From: an uncultured Candidatus Saccharibacteria bacterium
GTDB lineage: Bacteria; Patescibacteriota; Saccharimonadia; Saccharimonadales; Saccharimonadaceae
Length of the DNA: 58,280 bases
NCBI GenBank assembly: GCA_946804195.1
Contig: CAMPEU010000027.1
Coordinates: 1-58,280, forward strand
Reading direction: 5' to 3'
Within the stretch, counting starts at the first letter, position 1. Every line of letters begins with the position of its first letter. The notes under the pieces are model-generated. The model saw only the letters and a list, made by a program, of their open reading frames with translations, did no database searches and had not been told where the DNA came from. This document shows positions 1 through 21,440 of the stretch, in pieces. The position numbers and the translations under genes were made by a program.

Positions 1-1206
1 GTCATATAGATCAACCATAGTTGGTGGAGGCGACGTGTGTGTTAGCGGGTCGCTGGTAATTCCAGTACGTGCGTAGGTATCGATCAGTGCTTGATCGAGG
101 TCGGCTTCTTCGGCTGGCGTCATTGTAGTTATGTTCGTCTGACCACTCGCCTGTAGCGACGCACCACCGAGCATTAAACGCAATAATCCATGTAGCGTAA
201 CGAGGTTTGCACGGAGCGCATCGTCGGCTTCTTCGGAGTCTACGACATGTGGTAAATCGAATGGATTAACGCGGACATCAGAGTTGAGGCTGAGACGAAT
301 ATAACTACCGCCAACCGCATCTGATAATTTTTGGTATTCGTTTTCTGGGTCGATAATCAAGACGTCTGTTCCCATCATCATCGAACGTACAGCCTCGAGT
401 TTGACGGTAAATGATTTACCGGATCCGGACTTTGCAAATACCACCATATTGGCATTTTCTAGCGTAAACCTATCAAAGATAATCAGGCCGTTATTGTGCA
501 TGTTAATGCCGTATAGGATTCCACTTTCTTGGGTCAAATCGGCACTTGTGAACGGGAAGGATGTCGAGATTGCGCCAGTGTTCATGTTTCGACGAATTTG
601 TAACTGATCAGTCATCTGTGGGATTGTGCTATTTATACCTTGTTCTTGTTGGCTCGATGCAACCTTACTGAATACTAATTGCTGACCAAAGATTGTTTCG
701 ATTTTGTGCTGAATAAAGTTCAGTTCGTCCAAGCTATCTGCATACATCGTAATGTACAAACCATAGCGGAAGAATCGTTCTGATCCGACTTGGATTTCGT
801 CACGAAGTTCCTCGGCATCGTTAAGGGCGGCTTCGAGTCCTGGATCGCGGGTGCGACCCTTTTCTTCGTTAATCGCCATAGTGGCCTGCATTTGTGTTAC
901 TTTTTTGCGAAGGTTTTTTAGAACAACGTCAGATTCGACTGGATAAAAGAACATGCTGACATCCAGGACTTCATCGATATTGATAATACTACTCAGCCAT
1001 CCCGTGTAAATCTGTCGTGGATACGCATAGACGTAGATAGTGCGACCGTATTTCGTACCTAGGCGGAAATATCCAGCATGAATTTCCAGGCTAGATGGTG
1101 CAATCAAATCACGAAGAGTAGTGATGCCTTTTTGAAAAGCCTGCTCGACTTCGGCTTGTTCTCGTGCTCGCTGTTGTGCAGCGACATCAACTTTCGTTTT
1201 TGCCAT
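1..1206 (-). CDS. virB4: VirB4-family T4SS ATPase (partial, 3' end outside window)
   Basis: Conjugation-type ATPase expected to power assembly or transport by a type IV secretion system at the inner face of the membrane. The 402 visible codons start at an ATG (1206) and run off the left edge, so the C-terminal part (Walker B and beyond) is missing. A Walker A motif AKSGSGKSF lies at about residues 257-265, followed by a DVLIIDPENEY segment typical of the VirB4/TraC group. The first 240 residues match the N-terminal domain of Gram-positive-type VirB4 proteins. The start overlaps the end of the upstream TraC-like gene by 20 nt, so the two are probably translationally coupled. The VirB4 family call is firm; whether the system moves DNA or protein cannot be told. 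Confidence 0.88.
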   Translation of the reverse strand, partial: MAKTKVDVAAQQRAREQAEVEQAFQKGITTLRDLIAPSSLEIHAGYFRLGTKYGRTIYVYAYPRQIYTGWLSSIINIDEVLDVSMFFYPVESDVVLKNLRKKVTQMQATMAINEEKGRTRDPGLEAALNDAEELRDEIQVGSERFFRYGLYITMYADSLDELNFIQHKIETIFGQQLVFSKVASSQQEQGINSTIPQMTDQLQIRRNMNTGAISTSFPFTSADLTQESGILYGINMHNNGLIIFDRFTLENANMVVFAKSGSGKSFTVKLEAVRSMMMGTDVLIIDPENEYQKLSDAVGGSYIRLSLNSDVRVNPFDLPHVVDSEEADDALRANLVTLHGLLRLMLGGASLQASGQTNITTMTPAEEADLDQALIDTYARTGITSDPLTHTSPPPTMVDLYD

Positions 1207-2107: not shown

Positions 2108-3142
2108 TTAATGTAGTGAAATCATCACTTCTTCGCCTTCGCGTAGAACCTTGTTATTGTCGGCAACTCGCTTTGCCTGGTGTGCAATTGTTGCTATTGT
2201 TACGCCCTCCTGGTCCGACAGGTCCTTCGCCTGTTGCTTGGTTAGTTCCATTGTATCAGTATCGGGGGTGGAAACGCTAGTGTCTACTTGTTTTGTTTTG
2301 GTTGGTTTTGGATGACTTTTTTCTTTGGTTGCACCTTCGGCGAGAGCGGTAGCATATGCTGCTACATCACGTCCGCGTTGATCCGCTATCTTTTTTACAG
2401 ATGCTGCTTCTTTGATGCGAAGTTCATCTTTTGTGAGTACATGCGTGACACTAGTATCGTCATCCGCGGTATTCGCAGTAACAAGGGTTGTACTGGGGGT
2501 GTCAGTTTTTTTCGTAGGTGCGGGTGCGGATTTTGGTTGCGCTTTTGCCGACGCCTGCATATTTTTCGTTGCCTCTTTCTTTTTGGTCGCGGTTACATCT
2601 TGCAGGCGTTCGGTGAGCGCCTGTGCTTTTGCGCTGTCCTCGGCCATGACGTCAGTTGCGCCCTTTGCTTCGAAATATAGGTCAGAACTAAGAGATGTAT
2701 CAGGAGTACCGGCCGCACCTCGGATAGCCCAGCCGTGTGAATCAACCAAATTCGCTAGGTAATCTAGGCGTTTTGTGGCTTCGACATTATCAAATTCTTT
2801 GGTGAGAATTCGATCAGAGTTTTTTGCCGGAATAATTGTCACATAAGAATCGATACCGTCCGGTTGCCAAAATCGTTTATGTGATTTGAGGAAATAGTAC
2901 GAAACGACCGCTGACAGATACGCCTCCATCGGCTGATCTTTGCGAAGAGGTAGCGCCAGCGCGCCAAAAAATACGATAATCGGCAAAGGTAGGATTGCGA
3001 GTACGGGAAAAAGTTGCCCCAGACCCCAGGCGCCAGCCATGGAAATGGCAACAACGATCAGATAAATAAACTGACGAAAACTAAACGGTCCGATCAGCTT
3101 GTCGTCCGCCTCGACGTCTTGAGGTACTTTATACACCGCCAT
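2108..3142 (-). CDS. PrgI-family T4SS membrane protein with long disordered tail
   Basis: The N-terminal 110 residues match the PrgI family of small T4SS proteins: a short leader (AVYKVPQDVEADDKLIGPFS), two transmembrane helices at about 25-45 and 50-65, then a conserved amphipathic stretch ending near KSHKRFWQPDG. PrgI proteins lie directly upstream of VirB4 in Gram-positive conjugation operons and act as inner-membrane scaffold components. This copy has about 230 extra residues rich in Ala, Lys and Thr, low in complexity and probably disordered, facing the cytoplasm if the family topology holds. A TATACT box (3153-3158) lies 10 nt upstream of the start, so the gene may also have its own promoter within the operon. 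Confidence 0.8.
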   Translation of the reverse strand: MAVYKVPQDVEADDKLIGPFSFRQFIYLIVVAISMAGAWGLGQLFPVLAILPLPIIVFFGALALPLRKDQPMEAYLSAVVSYYFLKSHKRFWQPDGIDSYVTIIPAKNSDRILTKEFDNVEATKRLDYLANLVDSHGWAIRGAAGTPDTSLSSDLYFEAKGATDVMAEDSAKAQALTERLQDVTATKKKEATKNMQASAKAQPKSAPAPTKKTDTPSTTLVTANTADDDTSVTHVLTKDELRIKEAASVKKIADQRGRDVAAYATALAEGATKEKSHPKPTKTKQVDTSVSTPDTDTMELTKQQAKDLSDQEGVTIATIAHQAKRVADNNKVLREGEEVMISLH

Positions 3143-3205: not shown

Positions 3206-5353
3206 TTAAGGACTAGGAGGCGTATTGTTTACTCGTGAACCAGCGATTCTTACGATTGTTTCCTTGTTGTTTTGCTTTACGCCCTCGTGAGACTTTGCCT
3301 TTTGGGCACTTAATGCTGCCTGTTGAAGAGTTGTTTTTGTACTGCCGGTAGCCGCCGCTGTGACACGTTCCATTGCCTGTAAACTTGCCTTGCTTTGGCC
3401 GTTGATATGATCAGCGGATGCGTTAGTATAGGTACTCGCATTACCTTCCCATTGAACGAGTGATGCTATAGCGTTTCCGTTTTTATCCGTATTACTAGTA
3501 GCCCAGTTGTCGGCTGCTAGGGATGTGCTCTTGATACCGGGGTGTTTGAAGCGGGTATGTTTTTGCATTGCTCTAGACATCTTGCTATTTGCGCCTTCAG
3601 GGTTATCACTTTCGAAGTCTTTCATCACTTTTAACCATGCATCTGTACCCGTTTGCCCCATTTGAATCATGAGGTTTTCCGCGGCTTTTGCACCTATAAC
3701 ATCACTACCTTCCATTGCTTTTTTGAATTCACTCTGGAGTTTTCCTAGATCGCCTTCGGTGCCGCGATTGAGAACTGATTGCCTTTCCTGGACGTCCTTA
3801 TCCTCGAGCTGTTCTGCGGCGCCGGCGAACTGTCCAGCAAGTTTTTCATTTTGGTACTTAAAACGACTTGGTGCTAATTTTGATCGACCGATATTTCCAG
3901 CAACGCCTTGCGAAAGTATACGCGTGCCACGACCCCGCCAACTAGTGCCACTCATCTTGTCGGCATACTTTTCGGATTTACGGTCCTTTCGATATTGCTT
4001 ACGAGCCTCCCAGCCTTTACCGACCGACGACCCCTTGAGTCCTTCACCGGCTTTGTTTACGCCCTTATTGGTGTATGTATCGACTGCGCCACTAATTTTG
4101 CCACCGATTGCACCGGCACCTTGCAAGGCGGTCTTTAGAACGCTCCATACTGCTAGCATTGGTGCGACGGCAATCAGTGCTGCGACAAGTCCGAGCATTA
4201 CTGGCGTGGAACGATCACCACAAGAGCCGGTTTTAGCACCATTTTCTTGGTTATTAGTTTGATTACCGTCGGCATCAAGGATGGGCTCTGGTTGTTCGGC
4301 GCTAGATGGTAGCGTAATACATTGCCCGCCACCGTCACTGTAAAAGTTCTGATTGCCACTAGGAGAAGACTCACTACTAGTACCAGCCACTAATATGACG
4401 GCGCTCGCCAATTGACCTGCACCAAATAATAGTCCGATTACGGGGAAAACCATTAATAGTTTCCAGAACATACTTAACCATTTACGGAAGTATTGCTCGG
4501 TATTTGGTAGTAGATACAGGACAAAAGCGATAGGAGAAACGACGACGAGCAAGATGATGAAAGCCTTTCGCATTAACAGAATAATAATGAGAGTGATAAC
4601 CGTGATAACAATTACGCCAACTGCGGGAATCATAACAGACAGAATGAGCCATACTGCCACAACAGAGGCCAGGGCTATACCAGCGATTACAGCCAAGGTA
4701 CCTGTACCTCTCTGGATACCGGTATCGCTAGCGACCGGCATGGCAGTACGATCCGATACGTCACGTGCCATATCAACCAAAAAGTTCTGAACCTCATACC
4801 CTAGAATATTTGAAAGATCTACCATTGCCTGACAAATAAAGTACGAAACGTTAACTGCTACTGCAGCTATGATCAGCCGCGGTAGCATTTTTTTGATTCC
4901 GTAGTTGTCGAGTCCTCGTCCTGTAACTTGGGATAGAATAATTATCAAAAATGCAGCAATGAACATAACATTGGCGATGTTGCGTGCTAATTCCCACGAT
5001 TTGTAAGTGCCCGACGGTTCCTTGCCGGCACCGTATGTAGCGACTAGCTCGGGCTCGGTTTCTAGGAACGTCTTTGATAGGAATTGAAATGACTGATCAC
5101 CAATCCACGCCGCTTTTTCCATGAGCGGACATACTATCCACCCAATTTTATCGACGGCACAGGTGATGTCGTCATCACTTGCGTCAGCATTTGTTGTTGT
5201 TGGGTTCTGCTGTCCGGGCGTTACTGGATTTGGGCTACTCGGTTGAGCGAGAGCGATGTCGGTGTTGATATTGAGAGCAAAAGATAGCATCAAAATGATG
5301 CCTATAAATGCACTAGACAAAAATTTCACAATATTTTTTGTGTCTGTTGTCAC
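3206..5353 (-). CDS. VirB6/TrbL-like polytopic T4SS protein (paralog 1)
   Basis: A 715-residue membrane protein. Residues 1-37 look like a signal peptide ending at LAQ; a short Cys-containing segment (CAVDKIGWIVCP) follows, then five or more helices between about 120 and 420, and finally a long, charged C-terminal region rich in Lys, Gly and Ala. This architecture, an extracytoplasmic segment followed by a helix bundle and a large soluble tail, fits the VirB6/TrbL channel component. The protein at 11982-14081 is a clear paralog: both share GW(I/V)(V/I)CP, a W-E-x-x-R-x-I-A-N segment and the block LPRLIIAA(V/I)AVN(V/L)SYF. The start is GTG; the -10 box TATAGT ends 6 nt before it. Assignment to VirB6 is by topology and context, not by catalytic motif. 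Confidence 0.72.
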   Translation of the reverse strand: MTTDTKNIVKFLSSAFIGIILMLSFALNINTDIALAQPSSPNPVTPGQQNPTTTNADASDDDITCAVDKIGWIVCPLMEKAAWIGDQSFQFLSKTFLETEPELVATYGAGKEPSGTYKSWELARNIANVMFIAAFLIIILSQVTGRGLDNYGIKKMLPRLIIAAVAVNVSYFICQAMVDLSNILGYEVQNFLVDMARDVSDRTAMPVASDTGIQRGTGTLAVIAGIALASVVAVWLILSVMIPAVGVIVITVITLIIILLMRKAFIILLVVVSPIAFVLYLLPNTEQYFRKWLSMFWKLLMVFPVIGLLFGAGQLASAVILVAGTSSESSPSGNQNFYSDGGGQCITLPSSAEQPEPILDADGNQTNNQENGAKTGSCGDRSTPVMLGLVAALIAVAPMLAVWSVLKTALQGAGAIGGKISGAVDTYTNKGVNKAGEGLKGSSVGKGWEARKQYRKDRKSEKYADKMSGTSWRGRGTRILSQGVAGNIGRSKLAPSRFKYQNEKLAGQFAGAAEQLEDKDVQERQSVLNRGTEGDLGKLQSEFKKAMEGSDVIGAKAAENLMIQMGQTGTDAWLKVMKDFESDNPEGANSKMSRAMQKHTRFKHPGIKSTSLAADNWATSNTDKNGNAIASLVQWEGNASTYTNASADHINGQSKASLQAMERVTAAATGSTKTTLQQAALSAQKAKSHEGVKQNNKETIVRIAGSRVNNTPPSP

Positions 5354-6353: not shown

Positions 6354-8441
6354 TTATTTTCCTCCGAATGCACTACCAATGTCGTTGAGGAAATCGGCAA
6401 ACTCTTGCAGTCCCGCTGGTGTTCCTGGGCCGTCCAAGGAGGCGAGTGAGGTGCAGTCTTGCTGACCGTTTTCTGGTTGCAAGATACTATCGAGGAAATT
6501 TAGTGTTGGACAAACAAAACGCGGGTCATAGTCTAGATGGTTACCAAACCCAGAATCACCTTCCGAGTTTCCCGGAATGACGAGTGCATCGGACCTGATA
6601 CCGAGTGATCGTAACTTGTCGCGCATACCGAATGCATTGTCCGGTGGAATAAGCTTGTCTGTTTCGAACCCTGCTAGAAAACTTGGCGCTGATTCTGGAC
6701 TCGCAAACAAGGCTGGAGATAGCGCTGTAAAGTTGTCGATACACTCGACAAGTTTTTTGCTAGATAAGTTCATAACGCCGCCTGACAAGCTAAGTAGTCC
6801 ACCACTTTCGAGTTGACCAGAAATCGACTCAAGATTTCGTCCTGTTTGTAGGGCGTATTGCCCTGCGGTTAACACGTCGGTTAGGAGGCTGATTGGATTT
6901 ATGCTGCTGGCATCAAAGCTTCGTCCTCCCAGATCGATACCTAGTCCCGATAGATCATTACTACTCAAACCCTGGCCGTATTCTGCAACATCGCCACTAC
7001 CACCGGTTAATAGGTCGGTAAAATTCGTAAGCCCAGCGAGATCTGTCGGTATGCAAGTTGAGTGGTACATGCCAATCAGGAAGCTTTCGAATGAGCGAAA
7101 TAGTGCCGTATAGCCATTTGTTGGCGCAGACCAGCCGACGGCGGCTCTGGCGCCCGATTTGCCACTTGCTGCGACACGCATCGACAAGCTACCGCCTGCG
7201 CTATCACCCCATACGACTATCCTAGTGGGATCGACGCCATACCAATCGGCGTGTTTGGTTATATGACTTACTGCACGCATAACATCTTCGAATTGATAAT
7301 AGACGCCGCCAGACCCAAGCCTATAGGTGGCATCAAATGCTGCGTAGCCACGTTTTTGGAGCTGTCCTCCTGATCGTGGGTCGTCTACGATTTTTTGACC
7401 CACTCCGTCATTCGCAATCCAGCCACCACCATTAAAGAATAGGATAGCTGGTGAATTACCCCTGCCCGGTGCATTGGGTAAAGGGATAATCTCTTGTTCT
7501 TTACCTGCACCATTGATGTAGTATCCATAACGGTCGGGTTTCTCGCTAGTATCAACGTCTGCATCTGGTCCTTGTTCGTGGAGTGTGTCGATGTACTTTT
7601 CTAACGAGTCTGCTTGATCGAGCTGGTCGAGCCATTTCAGAGGATTATTTTCGTCAGTCTTAGTATCCGTACCACCAGAACTACCCACTGTATCAATGAA
7701 AGTTTTTCCTGAAACAGCCCCGGTGATGCATGCACGTTGGTTAATCGTTGATCCTTGAAGTTCAGTCTTTGTCAGACAATCTTGAATTGATTTAGGCTTG
7801 CCTTCTTTGCCGTCTTGTCCTAGACCGCCGTATAGGCACCATAATGCAGCGGCGTCATTATTTTTGTAAGGTGCGCAAGCGTTAAGGATGGCTTCCTTGT
7901 ATGTGTCGGCGTCATTTTTTGTGTTGGTTGGCGGATTGATGATTTCATTCGGAACATCAATTGTCTTTATGCCCGCCCCTGTTGCGCAGGCATTGTACAA
8001 TTCGATATCTGTCTCGGCGACTTGCACTTCACATTTTTTGTACGAAACACCAATGGTACATGCGGTGTATAAATCACCGGTATATTTGTCGCAGGCCTTA
8101 TTGATATCCAGTACCGGCTTGTCGGTAATTTCACCACTTTGTTTTGCTTTTTTGGCAGTACGGCAAATGTTGGCGACAGATTCATCATAGGCGTCAGCAT
8201 AAGCGTCACACTCCTCGCCACCACGGGCACCGTCCTTGCAGGCGTTACGCTGTCCGCCGACTTTGTATTGACTACAGTAATCGTCGGCGGTGATTGCACT
8301 CGCCTGCTGCACGATACCACTCACACTACCAAGAGCAACCAAGATTGCTAATACTATAAGACGCGCAGAGCCAAGTAAACTATTACCACGGAACCATGCG
8401 TGATCGAAAAAGAGAAAAAGTCGTTTTGTTTTTTTGCTCAT
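6354..8441 (-). CDS. Secreted Cys-rich protein with alpha/beta-hydrolase (esterase-like) domain
   Basis: 695 residues in three parts. An N-terminal signal segment ends near QQASA (about residue 48). A region of about 200 residues follows with regularly spaced Cys (CSQY, ACKDG, ECDAY, ICRTA, ACDKY, ACTIG, KCEV, ACATG and more), likely disulphide-linked after export. The last 370 residues are an alpha/beta-hydrolase of the carboxylesterase/hormone-sensitive-lipase type: oxyanion-hole motif FNGGGW (about 338), nucleophile motif GDSAGG (about 413-418), a candidate acid in ETDKLIPP (about 595) and His in GNHLDYD (about 634). It sits inside the T4SS operon, so it may be a cargo or surface-displayed enzyme. 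The fold call is firm; substrate unknown. Confidence 0.78.
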   Translation of the reverse strand: MSKKTKRLFLFFDHAWFRGNSLLGSARLIVLAILVALGSVSGIVQQASAITADDYCSQYKVGGQRNACKDGARGGEECDAYADAYDESVANICRTAKKAKQSGEITDKPVLDINKACDKYTGDLYTACTIGVSYKKCEVQVAETDIELYNACATGAGIKTIDVPNEIINPPTNTKNDADTYKEAILNACAPYKNNDAAALWCLYGGLGQDGKEGKPKSIQDCLTKTELQGSTINQRACITGAVSGKTFIDTVGSSGGTDTKTDENNPLKWLDQLDQADSLEKYIDTLHEQGPDADVDTSEKPDRYGYYINGAGKEQEIIPLPNAPGRGNSPAILFFNGGGWIANDGVGQKIVDDPRSGGQLQKRGYAAFDATYRLGSGGVYYQFEDVMRAVSHITKHADWYGVDPTRIVVWGDSAGGSLSMRVAASGKSGARAAVGWSAPTNGYTALFRSFESFLIGMYHSTCIPTDLAGLTNFTDLLTGGSGDVAEYGQGLSSNDLSGLGIDLGGRSFDASSINPISLLTDVLTAGQYALQTGRNLESISGQLESGGLLSLSGGVMNLSSKKLVECIDNFTALSPALFASPESAPSFLAGFETDKLIPPDNAFGMRDKLRSLGIRSDALVIPGNSEGDSGFGNHLDYDPRFVCPTLNFLDSILQPENGQQDCTSLASLDGPGTPAGLQEFADFLNDIGSAFGGK

Positions 8442-9195: not shown

Positions 9196-11982
9196 TTACC
9201 AGGATGTATATAAGATGTCATTGTGCAAATAGAAAGGGTCGCTATAGTTAGCGGCGGTTGCGTTGTCGAGATCTGTGCAGTCTGTGCCCCCCGATAGCGA
9301 CCCATCAACCGAGCAGATCATTGTCCAGGCGCGGAAGTTCGTGAGCATCTCGCTTTGCTCGGTACATTTTTTACCTGTATACCAATCCTGATCAGCCGAT
9401 GCACCTTCGGTAATTGATGAAAAGCCCGCGATAGGATAAACCTTGTACGGATTACCGCTGTCATAGGGGCTAATCGGCTCGACGCCATTTTTTTTATCTT
9501 TTTGTTTTTCGCGTTGTTCTTCTTTGGAAAGTGCTTTGTATTGGACGTGCATTGCGCTTCGCCCCCACGGATCTTGTCGATTGACGCAATATTGGAGGAA
9601 CTTGTCATATTCACTTTCGGGAGTAGGTGCACCGGTCTTTTTGTCTATATACGGTTTTTGAGAAACGGAAACAGCTGAATTTAGTTGGCGTAGGACGTTT
9701 GGCGCATCGCCTTCTGGGTCGGCTTGAGCGAGACGTTCGGTTAGTTCATCAATCTTTTCCCTATATTCATCACTATGAGTATCGGTCATATAATCGATTA
9801 CAGTATTAACATCAGCTGCAAGTTCTAGACGACTAAAGCTGTAGCGTACGTTACATGCCGTATCCGCCATAATCAGGATTGCCAAATATTCAGGGTCGGG
9901 ACAAGATAGTCTGAGCGGATTGAACGGATCTGGCTGTAGGTAATATATAGCGTTTGCGCTTGGATCGAGTCTTTTGACTCCATCGGTTACGAGCGTCATA
10001 ACATTGGCAATTGTCGAGAATAACGGAGTCTTGTCATCGTAGACTGGCGTTAGTTTTCGTAGGATTGACCCAATGAACGAAAATTTATTATATGGATCGA
10101 ATGGATTTTTACGTCCGTCGTAGCGTGCGACTTCATCATAGTCTTTTTCTACTTCTGATTTTTTAGCCAAATACTCTGCCATAAATAGTGCATTACTCGG
10201 CATCATGCCGCGTGACATCGCCATATCTCCGAGGATTTGACCGGTACCTGCAAAAATAGCATCACTAGCGGCAACGCCTTTTGTTTGGGAAGTAAACAGT
10301 AATGAGGTAGCGTTTGCCCATGCGAGCACGTTTGCCCCAAATATTCCGGCAACATATGGTGAAAGCGTTTCGGTGGTTACTTTGAGCGAGGGTTGCATGA
10401 GGAACTCACCTCTCGTTCTTTTTTCTTTATCATCATAATGAGGTGGTGGGCAGGTTTCGTGCGCGACTTCTATAGCGCCCGCGAGAGCTCCTTGCCAGCC
10501 AGGCGTCGCGCTTGCTTCGATTTGGGGGATACAGGCTGTGTCTACATCCTTTTTAATAGCTGCGTGATTCGTTGTTTTTTCGCCTCCCAGGCAATATTCA
10601 CGATCACCTCCGATGAGGTTAACGGGGGGCATTGTTAGTTGGCCGGTAACATTTGATGCCGCACCCTGAGCTGCAGCGGATATCATAATTTGCGACCATG
10701 CTGGTGTAAGTGCAGCAATTAGATCAAATGTGTCTAGGTAATAAAAAAGTCCAAAAATTGATGGAATCGGTAGGTCGCCAAAAACGATAGATTTATACAT
10801 AGATGAATCTGTGGCGTTTGGTCCGGTATACCCTCCGAACGTACTCTCGGCTAGTTTGCTAGCAAGGACATTAGTTGGCACTTCGTCAGCAATACCTGCT
10901 TTGATTGAGTCAGCTGCTTTGAGATATTGCATAGCAAATCGCGCGACCGTAGCTGCTTTTGCGGACTTGGCATTATTGGTAACTGCTTTTGCGAATGAAT
11001 ACCACGAACATTGCAATCCAACGAATGAATTTGATTGGTTTGCGACGATTAACATGTAGGCCTCTAGTTGTGCGATTGTAATGGGACTACTGAGTGCCCC
11101 TAGGCTGATTCCGTTTTCAGAGCTTGGCCTACCGTAAATATCGATACCGCCCCCGTCTTTCACTGATCTATCAAATGACCTGTTGACGTTTTTTTCTGAA
11201 TTACCACCGACAGTTGGTGTTTTTGTCATGTTGTATCTTTGTTTAATAACCTGCCTGTACCGTGCATCTGTAAAAAAGCTAGATTTGGGATTAAATACAC
11301 TATACACAAGTGCTTTATTGGCACTACTTAGTCCTGCGTATAAAAATAGCATGTCACCGGTTGCGATGAGCCCGGGACTTTGGACGGGCGGAATGATTGC
11401 GGTGACTTGATAACGCTCCTCGGGCATGTCATTTTCGTATACTTGGTCATCTAGGTTGTCCTCTTTGACCTTTTGTCCCAGAACCGTAAAGCCCTGTTTT
11501 TCGAATGATTGTTTTTGTGCGCGACTCATTGTCGATAGTTTGCACTTTATCGAGTCTTGTTCTCCGCAATTGCTTGCACCTATCTTGTAGTTCATCATTT
11601 TTTTGTAATACGTATCTAGCGCAATTGTCGCATCAGACAAGTCATTTGTGTACATCTCTTTGATGTTTACGAGCAGAATATTTGGTGCAAAAATCGAACT
11701 ATACCAAACGCCGATAACGATCAAGCCGACTACAAACATAATTGACGACCCTTTGCGTAATTTGCCTGAGCGTCGACCGGTCAGTTTTAGGATACCTTTT
11801 TTGTTCGAATCTTTGTTGGATTTTTTAACGCTACCTTTCCAATCAGTATCGGGCGCAGATTCTTGAGATTTTACATCAGTATTCTTTTCGCTGCTGTCGT
11901 CTTTTTTTTTGGGATTGAATTTTGATTCGTAATCAGACTCGGCCGATGTTTGTTCGGCAGGGTTGAATGAGTTTTTCGCCAT
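9196..11982 (-). CDS. Large membrane-anchored T4SS-operon protein, unknown family
   Basis: 928 residues. The first 80 are polar, Lys/Ser/Asp-rich and presumably cytoplasmic; a single strong transmembrane helix follows at about 82-104 (FVVGLIVIGVWY), so most of the chain should be outside the membrane. The exported part has scattered Cys (for example SNCGEQDSIKCK), two moderately hydrophobic stretches near 400-440 and 545-585 that could be helices in or on the membrane, and a charged region near 740-850. I recognise no domain. Its start shares one base with the stop of the upstream VirB6-like gene (TAATG), so the two are co-translated. By size and topology it could fill a VirB8/VirB10-like bridging role or be a surface effector; both are guesses. 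Confidence 0.6.
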   Translation of the reverse strand: MAKNSFNPAEQTSAESDYESKFNPKKKDDSSEKNTDVKSQESAPDTDWKGSVKKSNKDSNKKGILKLTGRRSGKLRKGSSIMFVVGLIVIGVWYSSIFAPNILLVNIKEMYTNDLSDATIALDTYYKKMMNYKIGASNCGEQDSIKCKLSTMSRAQKQSFEKQGFTVLGQKVKEDNLDDQVYENDMPEERYQVTAIIPPVQSPGLIATGDMLFLYAGLSSANKALVYSVFNPKSSFFTDARYRQVIKQRYNMTKTPTVGGNSEKNVNRSFDRSVKDGGGIDIYGRPSSENGISLGALSSPITIAQLEAYMLIVANQSNSFVGLQCSWYSFAKAVTNNAKSAKAATVARFAMQYLKAADSIKAGIADEVPTNVLASKLAESTFGGYTGPNATDSSMYKSIVFGDLPIPSIFGLFYYLDTFDLIAALTPAWSQIMISAAAQGAASNVTGQLTMPPVNLIGGDREYCLGGEKTTNHAAIKKDVDTACIPQIEASATPGWQGALAGAIEVAHETCPPPHYDDKEKRTRGEFLMQPSLKVTTETLSPYVAGIFGANVLAWANATSLLFTSQTKGVAASDAIFAGTGQILGDMAMSRGMMPSNALFMAEYLAKKSEVEKDYDEVARYDGRKNPFDPYNKFSFIGSILRKLTPVYDDKTPLFSTIANVMTLVTDGVKRLDPSANAIYYLQPDPFNPLRLSCPDPEYLAILIMADTACNVRYSFSRLELAADVNTVIDYMTDTHSDEYREKIDELTERLAQADPEGDAPNVLRQLNSAVSVSQKPYIDKKTGAPTPESEYDKFLQYCVNRQDPWGRSAMHVQYKALSKEEQREKQKDKKNGVEPISPYDSGNPYKVYPIAGFSSITEGASADQDWYTGKKCTEQSEMLTNFRAWTMICSVDGSLSGGTDCTDLDNATAANYSDPFYLHNDILYTSW

Positions 11983-14081
11983 TACTTATCATCCTTGTTG
12001 CTACTCTTTTCTATAGTGTTATCGGCATCTGATATTTGTAATAGCTCATTTGGTTCATCAGGATCTTTTTTGTTCAGAATATCTTGTTTTTCTCGCGCCT
12101 CATCCAAGTCCTTCTCGGTATCAAACAGATATTTTTGTGCTCGCGCTTTTGCTTTTTCCTCGGTGCCACTAATCGGCGGCTGAGTCATATTATCAGGTGG
12201 ATGTTGTTGGCCTAACAATGACGAAGCATCAATTTGTACAGGTATAGCGACGGCTGTTGTTGCTTGTACGGGAGTTGAAGTTCCGGTAACGATATTTTCA
12301 TTTTGAGCAATTTGTGGAGCTTTGAAGCCGACGGTAGGTGCCGATGGGCTACTGCTGGACCCACCTCCACCACTACTGCCGGATCCTGCCGCAGGTGCAC
12401 CGGCGCTGAATTTACGTTCGCTATCCTTTGATTCGTGACCTTTTTTGCGATTCATTTGGCTAAAGAGGTCTTTGGCGGAGACGCTGTCGTCAGCTGCATC
12501 CGTAACACTCTTTTTACCATTCTTACTATCTTCGTTTTTGCCGCCAGTGGCATTGATTCCATCAAGATTAACGTCCTGGGCATCCGTGTTAAGGCGTGCG
12601 TTTTCTTGTTCTTGTTGTTTTTCGGCATCTGTCTTATCATCCTGGGGTTGTTTCTCGCCTAATGGATTCTGCGGAAGTGCCCGCTGTCCTTCGCTCACAC
12701 CCGCGGCGCTATATTGCTGCCCATCCAATATTGCATCTTGCGGAAGTACTCGTGATGGTTGCCCGGAGCCTCCCCCAGATAACGCGCTGTTACCGGGCGA
12801 ACGTCGTCTGCGGCTATGGGAATATGCTTGTCTACGATTGGGGGTTTCTCCTCCAAACATCCTCTTTATATTTTGGGCGCCGGCTGTAGCCTTGCCAGTA
12901 ACACGAGCTTCTTTGTCGTCACCGCCCCCGCGCCGTCCCTTTACCGCCGCAGTTAATCGAGATCCGGCAGAGCTCATAACGGTCGACATATTCTTGAACA
13001 GGAACCACACGCCCAGTAGCGGCAGTACGGCCGCTGCAGCCGCGGTTAGATCGGTAATAGCACTACCGGATCCACCAAGTGCCGAGGAGTAGCCATCGTT
13101 GGCTACGCGGTAATTCCTGAAATTTGGATCGCTTACTCCGACGCTGATAATCGTCGCGCTGACGATTTGTCCCGCACCGAGCAACAGGGCGATAATTGGA
13201 TAGAGCATCAGGAGTTGTAGGAATAATCTGACACCCTGCGTAAAGAATCGTTCGAGATTTGGTAGCAAATACGCAACAAATAATAGTGGCGACACGAGGA
13301 TGAGCATCGCAACAATAGTCTTTCGCATAATGAGCACAACAAGCATTACGGCAGAGATGGTGGCGATGGAAACAATAACGGCTGCGACGGGCGCCAAGAG
13401 GACCCAGGCGATACCAGGTTTTTGCATGACAGCCGAAGTAATAACTGTCAAAATACCATCATTAAAGGCGCTTCCAGTTTTGCCGATTGGCATGATTGTT
13501 GTACCGGTACGCTCTGCAATGCCGCGTAATATATTTATTAGAGAGTCACCGACAATGTTCGAGATGTCTATTAATATGACACATAAAAAATACGAGAGAT
13601 TAACGGCAATTGCGGCGATTATCAATCGTGGCAAAAGCCGCTTTATGCTGTATCCCCCACTGTTCTTGCCCGTTAATTGCGAATACACGAGTACCATAAA
13701 TGCAATCACAAAGGCAGCGTTTGCGATGGTACGCATGATTTCCCAGGCTGTATATGTTCCGCTATCGTTCGAGGCCAGGGCGTAATCAATACGCAAGAAA
13801 TTCTGATTCATATACGAAAAGCCATAGTCGGCGAGTTTTGCGATTGATCGCATAGTCGGACAAATAACCCATCCTACTGTTTCGATAGCACAGCTAGACA
13901 AACCATTAGTAAATGAGCCGCCGAGCGCCTGGAGGCCAGCGAGTTGTGCCTGTGCGGGTCGCGTCATGAGAGGTGTCATGACCATCATAATTGCGATAAG
14001 TGTGCCCATTAACAGCAACGTCCCACGCCGAAGATTTGCGCGCAGAACCTCGGTCACACGTTTTGACCAGCGCTGCATCAT
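11982..14081 (-). CDS. VirB6/TrbL-like polytopic T4SS protein (paralog 2)
   Basis: 699 residues, first gene of the leftward operon. A hydrophobic leader (about 18-45) is followed by the same layout as paralog 1: a two-Cys segment (CAIETVGWVICP), helices between about 110 and 370, and a long polar C-terminal tail rich in Gln, Asp, Gly and Ser. The middle helix block (KRLLPRLIIAAIAVNLSYF) is nearly the same as in the gene at 3206-5353. The family role is an inner-membrane channel component. Two adjacent ATG codons (14081 and 14078) are possible starts; TACTAT/TATAAG promoter-like bases sit just upstream. The 71-bp gap to the divergent pilin operon must carry both promoters. Confidence 0.72.
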   Translation of the reverse strand: MMQRWSKRVTEVLRANLRRGTLLLMGTLIAIMMVMTPLMTRPAQAQLAGLQALGGSFTNGLSSCAIETVGWVICPTMRSIAKLADYGFSYMNQNFLRIDYALASNDSGTYTAWEIMRTIANAAFVIAFMVLVYSQLTGKNSGGYSIKRLLPRLIIAAIAVNLSYFLCVILIDISNIVGDSLINILRGIAERTGTTIMPIGKTGSAFNDGILTVITSAVMQKPGIAWVLLAPVAAVIVSIATISAVMLVVLIMRKTIVAMLILVSPLLFVAYLLPNLERFFTQGVRLFLQLLMLYPIIALLLGAGQIVSATIISVGVSDPNFRNYRVANDGYSSALGGSGSAITDLTAAAAAVLPLLGVWFLFKNMSTVMSSAGSRLTAAVKGRRGGGDDKEARVTGKATAGAQNIKRMFGGETPNRRQAYSHSRRRRSPGNSALSGGGSGQPSRVLPQDAILDGQQYSAAGVSEGQRALPQNPLGEKQPQDDKTDAEKQQEQENARLNTDAQDVNLDGINATGGKNEDSKNGKKSVTDAADDSVSAKDLFSQMNRKKGHESKDSERKFSAGAPAAGSGSSGGGGSSSSPSAPTVGFKAPQIAQNENIVTGTSTPVQATTAVAIPVQIDASSLLGQQHPPDNMTQPPISGTEEKAKARAQKYLFDTEKDLDEAREKQDILNKKDPDEPNELLQISDADNTIEKSSNKDDK

Positions 14082-14152: not shown

Positions 14153-15127
14153 ATGCAGCCAGAACAGCAAAATCAAACGCCCACGCCAAATAATATACCT
14201 GATTATTTGGGTATGGAACAGGTAACTAATTCCGCTGTAGCCAAACGAAAAAATAGGAAAAAGATGGTTATTGCTCTCTTGTTTTTAGTTTTTACCACCT
14301 TCCTTGTATTTGTGGGCATTGTTTTGTATTTATTGTTACAGCAGGATACGCCACAGGAAAGATTCTACCGGGCACTCGATAAGCAAATGCAAGTTAGTTA
14401 TATAAAACGCGACTTTGAATTAAAAAAAGAGGACGGCTCAATGACCGTAGTTATCTCCACCGATACCTCGAATCTCAAGCAGGCAAAGAGCGACATGCGC
14501 ACTACTGCGAGCAGCAAAGGCAAGGCGGTCCTGGACATGCAGACTATTGTATTGAGTAAAGAACGGTATATGTTCTCAATACAATCTACCGCGCAGGAAT
14601 CTTCTTTGGGTGATTTGGAAAAAGATAAGTGGTATAGTGCTCCATTTCATGCTGCTGATAGTAAAGAGGTTGGTTATTGGATAGATGAGACTAAGTCGCC
14701 ACTAGTATTAAACTCAGTTCAGGGACTGGTACCAACCGGTAACTTTACTGGTGATCAGCGTAGTCAGCTACTAGATTACATTCGGCTGAATGATATATAT
14801 CATATTTTAGATATACAAACGCGGTCGGATAAAGATACGAAACTAACAGGTTATATAATACGACTAGACATCGACAAACTTAACGAATTAAATGCCCAAA
14901 TCGTTAAACTACTTGGTCTTTCACCAACGCTTGTCATTCAAAAGCCATATCCTGAATATCAAGAGACAATCTTTTGGGTAAATGAAACAACGGGGATGTT
15001 AGCAGAGCTAACGTATAATAGTGGAAAAAGTAAGGATGATATAGATGTACGACAAACCACAGCCTTTACTTATCCCAATAAACTATCAATTTCATCTCCG
15101 GCGGGAGTAGAAGAGGTGTCATTTTGA
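14153..15127 (+). CDS. Hypothetical anchored protein at head of pilin operon
   Basis: 324 residues. A Gln/Pro/Asn-rich N-terminus (1-30), a basic patch KRKNRKK and one strong transmembrane helix (about 40-62) precede a domain of about 260 residues that is probably extracytoplasmic. The domain has alternating beta-strand-like segments and few Cys, loosely like lipoprotein carrier (LolA/LppX-type) folds, but I cannot support that by motif. The stop overlaps the start of the first pilin-domain gene by 4 nt, so it is the first cistron of the pilin array and divergent from the T4SS operon. A role in pilus assembly is inferred from position only. Confidence 0.6.
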   Translation: MQPEQQNQTPTPNNIPDYLGMEQVTNSAVAKRKNRKKMVIALLFLVFTTFLVFVGIVLYLLLQQDTPQERFYRALDKQMQVSYIKRDFELKKEDGSMTVVISTDTSNLKQAKSDMRTTASSKGKAVLDMQTIVLSKERYMFSIQSTAQESSLGDLEKDKWYSAPFHAADSKEVGYWIDETKSPLVLNSVQGLVPTGNFTGDQRSQLLDYIRLNDIYHILDIQTRSDKDTKLTGYIIRLDIDKLNELNAQIVKLLGLSPTLVIQKPYPEYQETIFWVNETTGMLAELTYNSGKSKDDIDVRQTTAFTYPNKLSISSPAGVEEVSF

Positions 15128-16371
15128 GGAATGCATCACCTAGGTTCGGGCACATCAAGAGCCTTAGTTTCTTTTTAGGAGCTGTCTTAGTCGCCCTTAT
15201 TCTAAGTGTCATGATTAGTCTCTCAACTAATCGAGTGGCGTATGCGTGGTGCGATAATCTAGGTATTAGTTTCGAACACCTTTGTGTGTCAGAAAACTAC
15301 GACTCATTGCCGGGTAATATCAAGAGTACGACTAATATTGATGATTTTAGGGAAATTGCTAATAGCTGTATGGAGAGCGGTAATGCGTATGGTATTGATT
15401 ATGGCATCAGACAGGGTGGATGCGCCGATGCGGCAACATCTTGCCTCAGGCATATAGTAGATCCCGAATATTGTACGGGCGATGTAATGGCGAGTATGGT
15501 TGGTGGTTTATTTTCTGAGGATTCGATCTTTGGAGGTTCATGTAATGACGGCAAGTTGACGGATAACGGTGATCAGGATTGTTCTCCTCTCGCAAAGGCA
15601 AACAAGGCCGCGATTGATGCCGATACTGATGCAGCAGTTGCAATAGCCAAGGGGGCGTGTACAGTACCTACGACTGGATCTGAAGCGGATAAAACAATCG
15701 CAGCACAAGCGTGCACCAAGTCTATTGAAGAAGCTTGTACTAAGCCAGAGCTTAATAATAATGGCACTTTGAAAAATGATGCCGACTACACTAGCTACAA
15801 AAAGTGCCTCAGTAACGCGCTATTTGATAATGCTAAAGATGAAAATGAATGTACGGGCAGAGGTGGTAAGTGGACACCAAAGCAAGGACCCGCCCTACCC
15901 GGGCAAGGTTTGGGTGGAGCATGTGTCGCTGCGCCTCCCACTACACCAACAGACCCCTGCGAGGGACATGGTGGAACGAACGCTGCCACAGGTAAGTGTA
16001 ATGATGGTACCGACCCAAAGGAAGCCGACTGTCCGAAAGTTCCCGGTACCAATACGTGCGCCACAATAGGACGCGTCAGTGACCGTTGTGGTGAGGCACG
16101 AGTAAATATTATCGTTTGTGGCGATGAGGGTGGCAATGTGGCGCTGAACAATGTTCTCAAGATTGTTGTAATGGTTCTCTCGATTACCGTTGGCGTTGCT
16201 GCGGTTGGTGGGCTGGCGTGGGCGGCTGTACTTTACTCCAAGGCCGAGGATAACGAGGGTAACGTTAGCGAGGCAAAGACACTCATACAAAACATCGTAA
16301 TTGGATTAATAGCCTATGTCTTTTTGATCGCATTAATTAATTGGCTAGTGCCGGGATCGGTGATAACGTAA
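15124..16371 (+). CDS. Large Cys-rich protein with C-terminal T4SS-pilin-like domain (pilin 1)
   Basis: 415 residues. A signal peptide (about 1-40, ending near VAYA) leads into a Cys-rich domain of about 270 residues with many Cys and a Pro/Gly-rich linker, then a C-terminal module of about 75 residues with two hydrophobic helices around a short polar loop (SKAEDNEGNVSEAK) and ending WLVPGSVIT. This module is the same as the whole mature part of the following small pilins. The start is TTG at 15124, overlapping the previous stop by 4 nt; no later ATG would keep the signal peptide. It may be an adhesin-bearing tip or minor pilin. Pilin likeness is clear; the tip role is conjecture. Confidence 0.65.
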   Translation: MRNASPRFGHIKSLSFFLGAVLVALILSVMISLSTNRVAYAWCDNLGISFEHLCVSENYDSLPGNIKSTTNIDDFREIANSCMESGNAYGIDYGIRQGGCADAATSCLRHIVDPEYCTGDVMASMVGGLFSEDSIFGGSCNDGKLTDNGDQDCSPLAKANKAAIDADTDAAVAIAKGACTVPTTGSEADKTIAAQACTKSIEEACTKPELNNNGTLKNDADYTSYKKCLSNALFDNAKDENECTGRGGKWTPKQGPALPGQGLGGACVAAPPTTPTDPCEGHGGTNAATGKCNDGTDPKEADCPKVPGTNTCATIGRVSDRCGEARVNIIVCGDEGGNVALNNVLKIVVMVLSITVGVAAVGGLAWAAVLYSKAEDNEGNVSEAKTLIQNIVIGLIAYVFLIALINWLVPGSVIT

Positions 16372-16838
16372 TGATGAACAAAATAAAGATCGCAGTAATA
16401 GTAATAGCAACTATGTTTATGACGAGCGCCTCACCCGTCCACGCACAGGGTTTTTTGAGTGGACTATTAGGAGGTGGCGGTAGTAGTAGTGATAAGGGCA
16501 ATGGTTGTGGCGGTACGCAAACTCACTTTATAGAATGCAGCAGCGAGGAAGGTGGCGTTGAAGCCATAGGCGATGTTATTCGGATTGTTATTATTGTTAT
16601 GACCTTTTTGATTGGTATCATAGCGACCGGTGGACTTGCCTACGCGGGCATATTGTACGCTAGTGCACGTGATAACAAAGAAAAGGTTGCCGAGGCTCTA
16701 GGGGTCGTACGCAACGTGGTTATCGGCCTATTGTTATATGTGTTTACCATAGCGATTATTAACTGGTTGATACCAGGCAGCGTAATAAGTGGTGGGCCAG
16801 AACCGTCGCCGAGCACTTCTGTGTCACCTACACAGTAA
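16371..16838 (+). CDS. T4SS-pilin-like protein (pilin 2)
   Basis: 155 residues from the ATG at 16371, which shares one base with the preceding stop (TAATG); a second ATG follows directly. A signal peptide ends at about residue 24 (SPVHA/QG). A short Gly/Ser segment with a Cys pair (CGGTQTHFIEC) comes next, followed by two helices (about 66-95 and 110-132) around the polar loop SARDNKEKVAEA, and the ending WLIPGSVIS shared with pilin 1. The layout matches VirB2/TrbC-like major pilins and what I recall as the CPR 'T4SS_pilin' family. A Pro/Ser-rich tail of about 15 residues follows. Confidence 0.7.
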   Translation: MMNKIKIAVIVIATMFMTSASPVHAQGFLSGLLGGGGSSSDKGNGCGGTQTHFIECSSEEGGVEAIGDVIRIVIIVMTFLIGIIATGGLAYAGILYASARDNKEKVAEALGVVRNVVIGLLLYVFTIAIINWLIPGSVISGGPEPSPSTSVSPTQ

Positions 16839-16879
16839 TAGATTGATTGATTTTATGAGGACATGGTAGGATAAGAATT

Positions 16880-17341
16880 ATGAAACGTTTTGTCGTCAGT
16901 CTTGCAGTATTTGTCATAATGTTTATGACAAGCCTTTCAGTACTACCCGTAGCAACCGCAAGTGCATTATTACCAGGAGCACAACGATGTCCTAATCAAA
17001 GCGACTTTTTGCCTAGTTGGTACGACAACATGTGCAAAGACAAACAAGGTAACATAGTCTCGCCAAATGAAAAAGGCAGTAAAGATGCGAGCACTACCGG
17101 GAACAATATCGGCGGTTGGTTAGCACAGATAGCGATAAACCTAGTAACGATGCTTTTGACCCTGGTCGCCTACATTGCCTTGGCGTATGTAATATTCGGT
17201 GGCTTTAAATTTATGACGTCAGGCGATAATAGTAGTGGCACGCAAGCAGCGCGCAAGACGATTACTAATGCGCTGATTGGTTTGGTTATTTCGATTATGG
17301 CAGTAGCGATTGTTAAATTTGTCTCGGGGGTAGTTGGTTAA
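16880..17341 (+). CDS. T4SS-pilin-like protein (pilin 3)
   Basis: 153 residues with a signal peptide (about 1-28), a mature N-terminal segment with two Cys, and the two-helix core at about 78-105 and 125-150 separated by a polar loop (TSGDNSSGTQAARKT). The motif FGGFKFMTSGDN corresponds to GGIRYTTSNGD in its downstream paralogs. AGGA 9 nt before the ATG is a weak ribosome binding site, and a 41-nt gap separates it from pilin 2. Membrane-inserted pilin precursor by analogy with VirB2 proteins. Confidence 0.7.
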   Translation: MKRFVVSLAVFVIMFMTSLSVLPVATASALLPGAQRCPNQSDFLPSWYDNMCKDKQGNIVSPNEKGSKDASTTGNNIGGWLAQIAINLVTMLLTLVAYIALAYVIFGGFKFMTSGDNSSGTQAARKTITNALIGLVISIMAVAIVKFVSGVVG

Positions 17342-17342
17342 C

Positions 17343-17693
17343 ATGTTTAATTGGATTACTGATTTGTTTGGCGGTGGTGGTGACAAAGCCAAAACCGATT
17401 CGACTATTTCTATCTCTGCCAATGATTTGGGCTTGCCTAACGCACCTACGCAAATTGGCGGTGGTGAGGTTGTTGCGATACTGAACCTGGTTTATGTAGT
17501 TGCTGGTATCGTTGCGGTTGTCGTAATAATTATTGGCGGTATCCGGTACACGACCAGCAATGGTGACAGTAATGGTATTCAATCTGCAAAGAACACCATT
17601 ATGTATGCAGTCATTGGCCTTGTTGTTGTTATTATTGCGGCGGCGATCACTAATTTTGTTATAGAAATAGTAGCGAGAGGAAATACAACATAA
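17343..17693 (+). CDS. T4SS-pilin-like protein without signal peptide (pilin 4)
   Basis: 116 residues from the ATG at 17343, one base after the stop of pilin 3; an in-frame TTG at 17334 lies inside pilin 3 and is less likely. Unlike its neighbours it begins with a Trp- and Gly-containing amphipathic segment (FNWITDLFGGGGD) and no signal peptide. The core has two helices (about 47-66 and 88-108) around GGIRYTTSNGDSN. If exported at all, it would insert through its first helix. It could be a structural variant placed at the base of the fibre; this is inference. Confidence 0.68.
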   Translation: MFNWITDLFGGGGDKAKTDSTISISANDLGLPNAPTQIGGGEVVAILNLVYVVAGIVAVVVIIIGGIRYTTSNGDSNGIQSAKNTIMYAVIGLVVVIIAAAITNFVIEIVARGNTT

Positions 17694-18136
17694 TGAAACA
17701 TTTACTTCAACTAACATTTGCTAGCGTTATTTTGGCTGCTGGCTTATTAGTGACGCCACTTGCTACTGCGCAAGTATCTGCTGTCGATGTGCTATCAAAA
17801 TCATGTGGCGCTGCAGGTGGTAGCGGTACCGCCGGAGCTGGGTCTGGAGCTGGCGAGAGTACGGGTGGCGATACATCACCGCTTTGTAACGCAGCTGGAA
17901 AAGATGAACTTCCCGAATTGGTGAAGAACCTCGTTAATTTACTGCTCGCTGTTTTGGGCTTTATCGCCGTTATTATGATTATTATTGGTGGTATCCGGTA
18001 TACGACCAGTAATGGCGATAGTAATAGTACCAAGGCGGCGAAAGATACGATCCTGTATTCCGTTGTTGGTCTAGTTGTTGCGATACTGGCATATGCAATC
18101 GTCAATTTCGTTGTAGATTTTTTTATAAATAGTTAG
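17693..18136 (+). CDS. T4SS-pilin-like protein (pilin 5)
   Basis: 147 residues; the ATG overlaps the previous stop by one base (TAATG). A signal peptide (about 1-27, ending TATAQ) is followed by a low-complexity Gly/Ala/Ser-rich stretch flanked by two Cys (about 39 and 65), then the two-helix core around GGIRYTTSNGDSN. The core is nearly identical to pilins 4 and 6, also at DNA level around 17980-18010, which points to recent tandem duplication. Confidence 0.72.
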   Translation: MKHLLQLTFASVILAAGLLVTPLATAQVSAVDVLSKSCGAAGGSGTAGAGSGAGESTGGDTSPLCNAAGKDELPELVKNLVNLLLAVLGFIAVIMIIIGGIRYTTSNGDSNSTKAAKDTILYSVVGLVVAILAYAIVNFVVDFFINS

Positions 18137-18152
18137 GTAATCAAGGAGGAAT

Positions 18153-18524
18153 ATGAAAAAAATATCAGCAATAGTGGCGAGTTTGGCAATTATGTTTGGC
18201 GTCGTAGCCTTGCCGCTTGCCTCAGTGGTGCATGCAGACGCCGCGTCTGTTATCAAAGATAGCGTTGAAAAAGTTAACGAAGGTAACGATACTCCGCTAG
18301 AGGAACAGATAAAAACCGTCGTGAATGTACTACTCTTTATCCTCGGTGTGATTGCCGTCATTATGATCATCATCGGTGGTATTCGATACACGACCAGTAA
18401 TGGTGATCAAGCCAATGTAAAAGCAGCAAAAGATATCATCCTCTACGCGGTTGTTGGTTTGGTAGTAGCCATACTCGCCTACGCTATCGTTAACTTTGTT
18501 CTCGATGCATTTGCCAGCACTTAG
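18153..18524 (+). CDS. T4SS-pilin-like protein (pilin 6)
   Basis: 123 residues with a strong ribosome binding site (AAGGAGGA, 18143-18150). A signal peptide ends near residue 29 (VHADA), a short charged segment follows, then two helices around GGIRYTTSNGDQ. It is the most compact family member and contains no Cys. As the copy with the best ribosome binding site in the array it is a candidate for the major pilin subunit; expression data would be needed to say so. Confidence 0.74.
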   Translation: MKKISAIVASLAIMFGVVALPLASVVHADAASVIKDSVEKVNEGNDTPLEEQIKTVVNVLLFILGVIAVIMIIIGGIRYTTSNGDQANVKAAKDIILYAVVGLVVAILAYAIVNFVLDAFAST

Positions 18525-18648
18525 ACCGAGGCTTATTAATACTCGTCGTGTTGAACGGCTGTAACTTGGTGTCAATTTGCTCTTAACAAAACACAAGCTT
18601 TTTGGTATAAGTAGACATAGACTAATACAAAGCGAAAGGTATTATAGA

Positions 18649-19065
18649 ATGAATAAGTTAAAAAAATTAATATCGACGGCCCTCATGGTTCCGGCATTTG
18701 CAGTGGGCGTTGGCCTGTTTGCAGGCGCTGTACCGGTGTACGCCGTTTTTGACCAGGGCCTACAAGATGGCGCAAACGCCGCACAGGGTAAAGATCAACA
18801 AGGTGACGCATCTAGCCTATTCGGTGAAGGTGGCCAAGGTGGTATCTTCCGAACAATCACTAACGTAATGCTCTTTGTCATTGGTGCAATCAGCGTTATT
18901 ATGTTGATTGTTGGTGGTATTCGCTATGTCGTGTCCGGTGGTGATTCAACCAAGGTGCAAGACGCAAAGAATACGATTCTTTATGCAATTGTCGGTGTTG
19001 TCGTGGCGATCCTCGCCTTTGCCGTCGTCAACTTTGTTATTCAGAGCTTTACTGACGGAGCCTAA
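18649..19065 (+). CDS. T4SS-pilin-like protein (pilin 7)
   Basis: 138 residues from the ATG at 18649. A signal peptide (about 1-31, ending PVYA), a Gly/Gln/Asp-rich mature start, and the two-helix core with GGIRYVVSGGDS in place of GGIRYTTSNGDS. It lies 124 nt after pilin 6, and TATAAG (18606-18611) plus an AT-rich stretch just upstream suggest its own promoter. A strong bidirectional terminator at 19084-19113 ends the array. It could therefore be expressed separately from the other six. Confidence 0.72.
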   Translation: MNKLKKLISTALMVPAFAVGVGLFAGAVPVYAVFDQGLQDGANAAQGKDQQGDASSLFGEGGQGGIFRTITNVMLFVIGAISVIMLIVGGIRYVVSGGDSTKVQDAKNTILYAIVGVVVAILAFAVVNFVIQSFTDGA

Positions 19066-19602: not shown

Positions 19603-19709
19603 GGGATCCTCCACTTTTTACTCTTGGCTCTTGACAAATAGTCCTCTACAGTATAACTAATACTAGTAGGATAATCAACCAATGAGCGCATGGATACGTA
19701 AAAATTACA

Positions 19710-21352: not shown

Positions 21353-21393
21353 AATGAAAAAGGTGTGCGGCTGCACACCTTTTTCATTTGGCG
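21348..21393. terminator. 46-nt perfect inverted repeat overlapping the tRNA 3' end
   Basis: Two 21-nt arms (21348-21368 and 21373-21393) with loop GGCT. The left arm begins with the CGCCA that forms the tRNA 3' terminus. The arms contain A5 and T5 runs, so the inner part works as a strong terminator; the outer part extends into the tRNA. Confidence 0.8.
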
Positions 21394-21440
21394 AAATGGA
21401 GAAATACTCCTGCATTTTTATGTATTGTATAATGAGAATC

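Follow-up and report, generated by a model that had tools for sequence, protein, structure and literature searches.

We analyzed a 58,280-nucleotide stretch of DNA (the window; contig CAMPEU010000027.1 of GenBank assembly GCA_946804195.1, contig C27 in our numbering) from an uncultured Candidatus Saccharibacteria bacterium of the Saccharimonadaceae, whose genome comprises 0.99 Mb in 28 contigs with a completeness of 99.8%. At positions 15124-19065, seven consecutive genes on the forward strand (P1 to P7) share a two-helix core, as a preliminary description of this DNA had stated. These genes probably encode a position-specific set of VirB2-like pilins, with P1 as the host-contacting ectodomain subunit of a type IV secretion system (T4SS) pilus. 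The pilins would not be interchangeable and would be part of a T4SS of monoderm type, encoded on the chromosome of an epibiont from the Saccharimonadia. Judging from the sequences, the P1/P2 class, unlike P3-P7, repeatedly bears large exodomains across Saccharimonadia, which is new here.

Results

Seven divergent pilins with a common core

The scores of P1 to P7 against PF18895 (T4SS_pilin; Pfam cut-off, 26.6 bits) are 15.2, 20.3, 26.5, 43.1, 50.9, 51.8, and 41.7 bits, respectively. P3 is borderline and reaches 28.3 bits, above the cut-off, in a six-frame search of the genome. P1 and P2 align to the same core as the other pilins and are joined by profile A8, which was built from P1/P2 cores. 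In NCBIfam, the best family is the Mbov_0395 pilin-like conjugal transfer family of integrative and conjugative elements (ICE), and P6 exceeds its cut-off. A PDB sequence search with a P6/P7 profile gave no meaningful match. Identity as type IV pilins was rejected, since no match to N_methyl (PF07963) is found in P1-P7, while a gene elsewhere in the window (21444-21941) does match it.

The pilins fall into three subgroups, P1 with P2 (core identity 51%), P3, and P4-P7. The GGIRYTTSNGD-type loop, described earlier as shared by all copies, is exact only in P4-P6. P7 (GGIRYVVSGGD) and P3 (GGFKFMTSGDN) have variants of it, and the loops of P1 (GGLAWAAVLYSKAEDN) and P2 (GGLAYAGILYASARDN) differ from those of the other copies. 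The net charge of the loop is positive in P2-P7. In the VirB2 family, the two termini are expected to face outward and the loop inward. The pilins described here may likewise be membrane hairpins of two helices in this orientation and would build a mixed pilus or a surface-exposed channel where the host cell is contacted.

Positional orthology and age of the copies

The order P1-P7 is preserved in congeneric genomes wherever contigs permit. In 45 of 49 comparisons with congeners, the nearest relative of a window core occupies the same position; the four exceptions are all P5, the sister of which is P6. Mean core identity is 64-93% between orthologs and 17-76% between paralogs within the window. 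In the 45 residues before the core, the median alignment score is 62 for orthologs, 22 for paralogs, and 22 for shuffled sequences. Since the N-termini of orthologs align and those of paralogs do so no better than shuffled ones, the ends are regarded as position-specific. A comparison of nonsynonymous to synonymous divergence (dN/dS) between cores and ends had been proposed, but the ratio is unusable because almost every comparison has a saturated or undefined dS. The dN values, which alone are usable, are 0.03-0.24 in the cores and higher in the ends (0.10-0.93). As far as the aligned sequences tell, the ends are thus conserved by position and evolve faster than the cores, and their faster change is change after an ancient divergence that bears no cassette signature.

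In a tree of 172 rows of short cores (90 columns, with many open forks), the SH-aLRT supports are 100 for P1+P2, 99 for P3, 95 for P7, 97 for P1 of the genus, and 95 for P2 of the genus. The closeness of copies 4-6 at the DNA level, from which a recent duplication had been deduced, is weak (75% over 103 nt for P4-P5 and 73% over 198 nt for P5-P6). Recent duplication was rejected, because congeners have positional orthologs and synonymous sites are saturated. The earlier notion of a constant assembly core with differing exposed ends is supported for these T4SS pilins: six or seven copies, their cores conserved, occur in relatives, and neither the single copy nor the unconserved cores that would have argued against an array were found.

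Copy number in the family and derivation of P1

Six pilins (a P1/P2-type pilin, P3, P4, P5, P6, and P7) are the usual number in the more distant members of the family; in a few, the count is five or exceeds seven. Most family members have the P1/P2-type gene at the head of the array. An inverted P7-like gene usually lies beyond the six-pilin arrays. P1 and P2 are both present in the genus of the window and in genomes G066, G051, and G047, while G055 has a single P1/P2-type copy with a large N-terminus; the P1/P2 rows of all these form one tree group (95). The seventh pilin, P1, was derived from the P2 type by duplication. P2-P7 would then be the counterpart of the usual six-pilin set, and P1 a duplicated P2-type subunit that gained a disulfide-rich helical ectodomain.

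Two neighboring genes, those for a 928 aa protein and an alpha/beta hydrolase, have strong similarity in nine genomes of the genus and in G047, G051, G055, and G066; distant homologs of both occur in other genomes. The genomes sharing the large P1 and these two proteins probably form one clade, and the large P1 with its partners therefore counts as one evolutionary event.

The ectodomain of P1

The Cys-rich ectodomain of P1, noted earlier as large, spans about 280 residues and holds 18 of the 20 Cys residues in the protein. This ectodomain (type A) is found in eight orthologs, namely those of the window, six congeners, and G066. The others are 20-32% identical to that of the window, and nine Cys residues are invariant in all eight, with two further invariant Cys adjoining the core. 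The P1 proteins of two congeners (G004 and G005) carry another ectodomain (type B), which resembles that of G055. Comparison of the type A and type B profiles by hhalign indicated no homology (probability 0.3%), though the P1 cores of G004 and G005 lie inside the P1 clade of the genus. The unrelated ectodomains on cores of one clade show that the ectodomain was replaced and the core retained. In the AlphaFold model of P1, the ectodomain is mainly helical with modest confidence. No relative of the ectodomain was found in Pfam or the PDB, including by a sequence search with an ectodomain profile. Neither sequence nor fold, the latter judged from a low-confidence model, shows likeness in the PDB to a known tip protein (VirB5-type).

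Large exodomains and fusions in the P1/P2 class

Profile A8 matches 233 of 245 Saccharimonadia genomes with a completeness of at least 90%. Of roughly 150 matches listed, which are the best ones, about 30 sit in ORFs that reach at least 300 aa; in this list and in that of the P6/P7 search below, frames run from stop to stop. In the arrays and loci examined, ORFs of at least 300 aa occur in 14 of 37 cases in the P1/P2 class as against none of 135 in P3-P7 (Fisher p 5e-11, with rows that are not independent). When the whole class was searched with the P6/P7 profile, the largest ORF among the best matches listed had 231 aa.

Some of the large ORFs combine the pilin core with an enzyme or adhesion module recognized by Pfam. 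T4SS_pilin is found together with Y_phosphatase3 at loci L072, L096, L098, and L099 (E 1e-30 to 6e-40), an alpha/beta hydrolase at L097 (2e-8), VanY at L149 (9e-18) and L150 (3e-12), a GDSL lipase at L151 (8e-10), a phosphodiester glycosidase at L155 (2e-13), SLH at L156 (1e-7), and Big_2 at L141 (2e-14). Big_2 is also found at L142 (1e-10), where the pilin is recognized by A8 only; several of the pilin matches in fusions are under the Pfam cut-off, as are those of P1 and P2 in the window. Catalytic motifs are intact (e.g., HCxxGKDRT, SNHQxGxAIDF, GDSL, and LDGGGS). Most fusions have a signal-like N-terminus ahead of the pilin core and the module C-terminal to the core; the module is N-terminal in L151. 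CHAP/NlpC-like C-termini in L100, L102, L103, L144, L146, and L151 (second ORF) were read from motifs and not confirmed by Pfam, and NCBIfam gave a sub-threshold NlpC/P60 match for L103 only.

Some further pilin ORFs should be noted. L143, L145, L147, L148, and L154 have N-terminal domains of about 280-330 aa, unassigned to a family and seemingly related to one another, before P1/P2-class cores. A nine-gene array at L101:1870-7208 includes a pilin of 623 aa, of which 500 residues make up a Cys-rich N-terminus. A 340 aa ORF at L097:99-1121, in a genome of another genus, apparently has three tandem pilin cores.

Gene neighborhood

The pilin array lies in the same cluster as VirB4, PrgI, and VirB6-like genes (Table 1), as in a monoderm (MPF-FATA-like) T4SS with VirB4, PrgI/VirB3, and VirB6; VirB6 is recognized from the likeness of its two copies and their place, without a named profile. 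A TraC-like fragment is also among the T4SS neighbors. Scans for Rfam families, promoters, and terminators gave no signal above chance.

Table 1. Positions of the pilin genes and their T4SS neighbors in the window
Feature	Position	Strand	Remarks
VirB4-type ATPase (TraG P-loop)	1..1206	-	Truncated by the first base of the window
PrgI-family T4SS protein	2108..3142	-	
VirB6-like polytopic protein, first copy	3206..5353	-	
Alpha/beta hydrolase (BD-FAE)	6354..8441	-	Cys-rich N-terminus; same genome distribution as large P1
928 aa protein	9196..11982	-	Strong similarity only in genomes with large P1
VirB6-like polytopic protein	11982..14081	-	Assigned by likeness to the 3206-5353 copy and by place; no Pfam match; divergent from the pilins
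324 aa membrane-anchored protein	14153..15127	+	Function unassigned; opens the + strand run; place conserved, sequence diverged
P1	15124..16371	+	415 aa; signal peptide, Cys-rich ectodomain, T4SS pilin core; TTG start overlaps the stop of the upstream ORF
P1 ectodomain, type A	15247..16086	+	About 280 aa; no Pfam or PDB relative
P1 pilin core	16132..16347	+	Two-helix; P1/P2-type loop
P2	16374..16838	+	P1/P2-class pilin with short CG..T....C N-terminus; short form of this type in most of the family
P3	16880..17341	+	Pilin with conserved PxWYxxL-type N-terminal motif; single tree clade (99)
P4	17334..17693	+	Pilin without N-terminal signal peptide-like segment; start TTG 17334 or ATG 17343
P5	17693..18136	+	Gly/Ser-rich N-terminus, Cys pair, pilin core
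P6	18153..18524	+	Pilin; predicted helical hairpin, core pLDDT about 85-94
P7	18649..19065	+	ATG 18649; most conserved pilin, mean core identity 93% among congeners

Several other genes in and around the cluster are of note. The hydrolase at 6354-8441, inside the T4SS cluster, is a candidate secreted enzyme. An HSP20 gene, that is, one for a small chaperone, is convergent to P7 in the window (19132-19614) and in nearly all family loci examined (L068-L083), with 72-82% identity, and so is fixed to the pilin array. In many genomes, the inverted P7-like pilin lies beyond this HSP20 gene. A type IV pilin-like gene with an N-terminal methylation motif (21354-21941) lies a few kilobases from the array. 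The same genome has a second T4SS locus on contig C2 (L034:1508-6231), with a small pilin, a 479 aa fusion, PrgI, and a VirB4 ATPase. The 479 aa protein combines an N-terminal T4SS pilin core with a polytopic VirB6-like part, and similar pairs are found in L029 and L031. A lone P7-like pilin outside the array is on contig C8 (L035:3673-4083), with a counterpart in L032.

Discussion

Core homology, synteny, positional orthology, the P2-type origin of P1, invariant Cys residues, the exchange of ectodomains on one core, and the confinement of large exodomains to the P1/P2 class are evident from the comparisons, and they point to a fixed set of specialized subunits; the topology, the disulfides, the joint assembly in one fiber, the place at the tip, and the binding of the host are inferred. 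In the likeliest reading, P1 serves a T4SS pilus, the assembly of which we infer, as a swappable subunit for contact, and it would probably cap or stud the assembly. A position at the tip gains indirect support from the recurrence of large exodomains in the P1/P2 class alone. The P1/P2 class may thus be the carrier for adhesion modules or enzymes, with exodomains displayed at the outer end or surface of the pilus, while P3-P7 would remain structural subunits. Saccharimonadia may also, though this is less assured than the role of P1 itself, use P1/P2-class pilins as swappable carriers within the T4SS pilus, by which adhesins, cell-wall hydrolases, lipases, glycosidases, and phosphatases would reach the host cell; P1 of the window would be one such carrier.

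Several observations weigh against a pilus with P1 as its contact subunit. P1 and P2 score under the Pfam cut-off for T4SS_pilin, and the loop of P1 has a negative net charge (-2), so that its placement inside rests on homology. The model of P1 is poor (mean pLDDT 61, pTM 0.43), and Foldseek searches of the PDB gave no significant match for the models of P1 and of P6, including the P6 hairpin. Co-assembly in one fiber is a prediction from the genes, and several of the enzyme fusions examined lack a neighboring array within the stretch covered. Such fusions could be stand-alone membrane-anchored exoenzymes. The P1/P2 hairpin in general might merely fix exodomains in the membrane, outside the pilus and the T4SS channel, as a filament of these pilins is itself predicted from genes. 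Yet P1 and P2 are inside a T4SS cluster, most family members have arrays that begin with P1/P2-type genes, and the cores of this type are strongly constrained (dN 0.14-0.24), which makes simple anchoring unlikely.

The preliminary description also proposed antigenic variation, and variation in antigens or host range by paralogs with exchangeable exposed ends, alternately expressed or recombined, would fit the faster change of the N-termini and the swapping of the P1 ectodomain within the genus; an idea of this kind has been proposed for the Trw system of Bartonella, and one was suggested for Patescibacteria (PMC12102498). However, gene order is fixed, orthology and N-termini follow position throughout the genus, and most relatives have six or seven copies, none of them nearly identical. 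We regard this explanation as improbable and reject a cassette, since between the species compared there are no near-identical or mosaic copies and the ends are tied to position. The positional orthologs, the saturation of dS, and the conservation of N-termini between orthologs argue for a fixed heteromeric set instead. Another possibility that counts against a host-contacting pilus is that the pilins serve DNA transfer from an integrative element, as the ICE pilin-like family in NCBIfam and the nearby VirB4 and PrgI would allow. Nearly every member of the class nevertheless has the array, and its neighbors are the same across the family, as for a chromosomal core locus, and the system of S. 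epibionticum was reported to lack a recognizable coupling protein or relaxase; a conjugative role is thus the least probable of these explanations.

The pilin array as such is of a kind already published, as is the idea of antigenic variation. VirB2 arrays of 2-11 pilins with a mean identity of about 25% were described in 383 Patescibacteria assemblies, for which the authors, drawing a parallel to antigenic variation, suggested host-adaptive versatility (Quinonero-Coronel et al. 2025, PMC12102498). Those arrays consist of tandem divergent pilins like that of the window, to which the present study adds positional orthology with position-specific N-termini and the fusions of the P1/P2 class. A chromosomal Saccharibacterial T4SS with a VirB2-like pilin series is likewise known in Southlakia epibionticum ML1 (SEML1_0006-0019; Wang et al. 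2023, PMC10633639). Its cluster has six pilins, as in most of the family of the window, and is essential (PMC10633639, PMC12857230), with transposon sequencing (Tn-seq) indicating a requirement for epibiotic growth. Compared with it, the window has in addition the P2-derived seventh pilin with its 280-residue Cys-rich ectodomain, the 928 aa protein, and the alpha/beta hydrolase.

In the Trw T4SS of Bartonella, with multiple VirB2 and VirB5 copies, amplified pilus genes are also proposed to touch host cells; no VirB5 was seen in the window, and the copies in the window are anciently diverged and fixed in place. The 'evolved' VgrG proteins of type VI secretion systems are tube or tip subunits with C-terminal effector domains. 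P1/P2 carriers would work alike, although VgrG belongs to an unrelated protein family and machine.

Fixed, specialized subunits together with a carrier class bearing enzymes or adhesion modules are undescribed in the literature searched, and no pilin-phosphatase or pilin-hydrolase fusion is reported in that literature, the coverage of which mostly excludes subscription journals and preprints. If P1/P2-class pilins are indeed swappable carriers, pilin-effector fusions would be a delivery principle undescribed for any T4SS in that literature. A monoderm T4SS pilus with dedicated carriers would also differ from Gram-negative VirB2/VirB5 pili and from the pilus-less conjugation systems of Gram-positive bacteria. 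Positional orthology predicts a multi-component pilus and not antigenic variants. These observations bear on the way in which Saccharibacteria employ their essential T4SS toward host bacteria; as molecules that the system may present or deliver, the pilin-enzyme fusions with intact catalytic motifs are candidates that can be tested.

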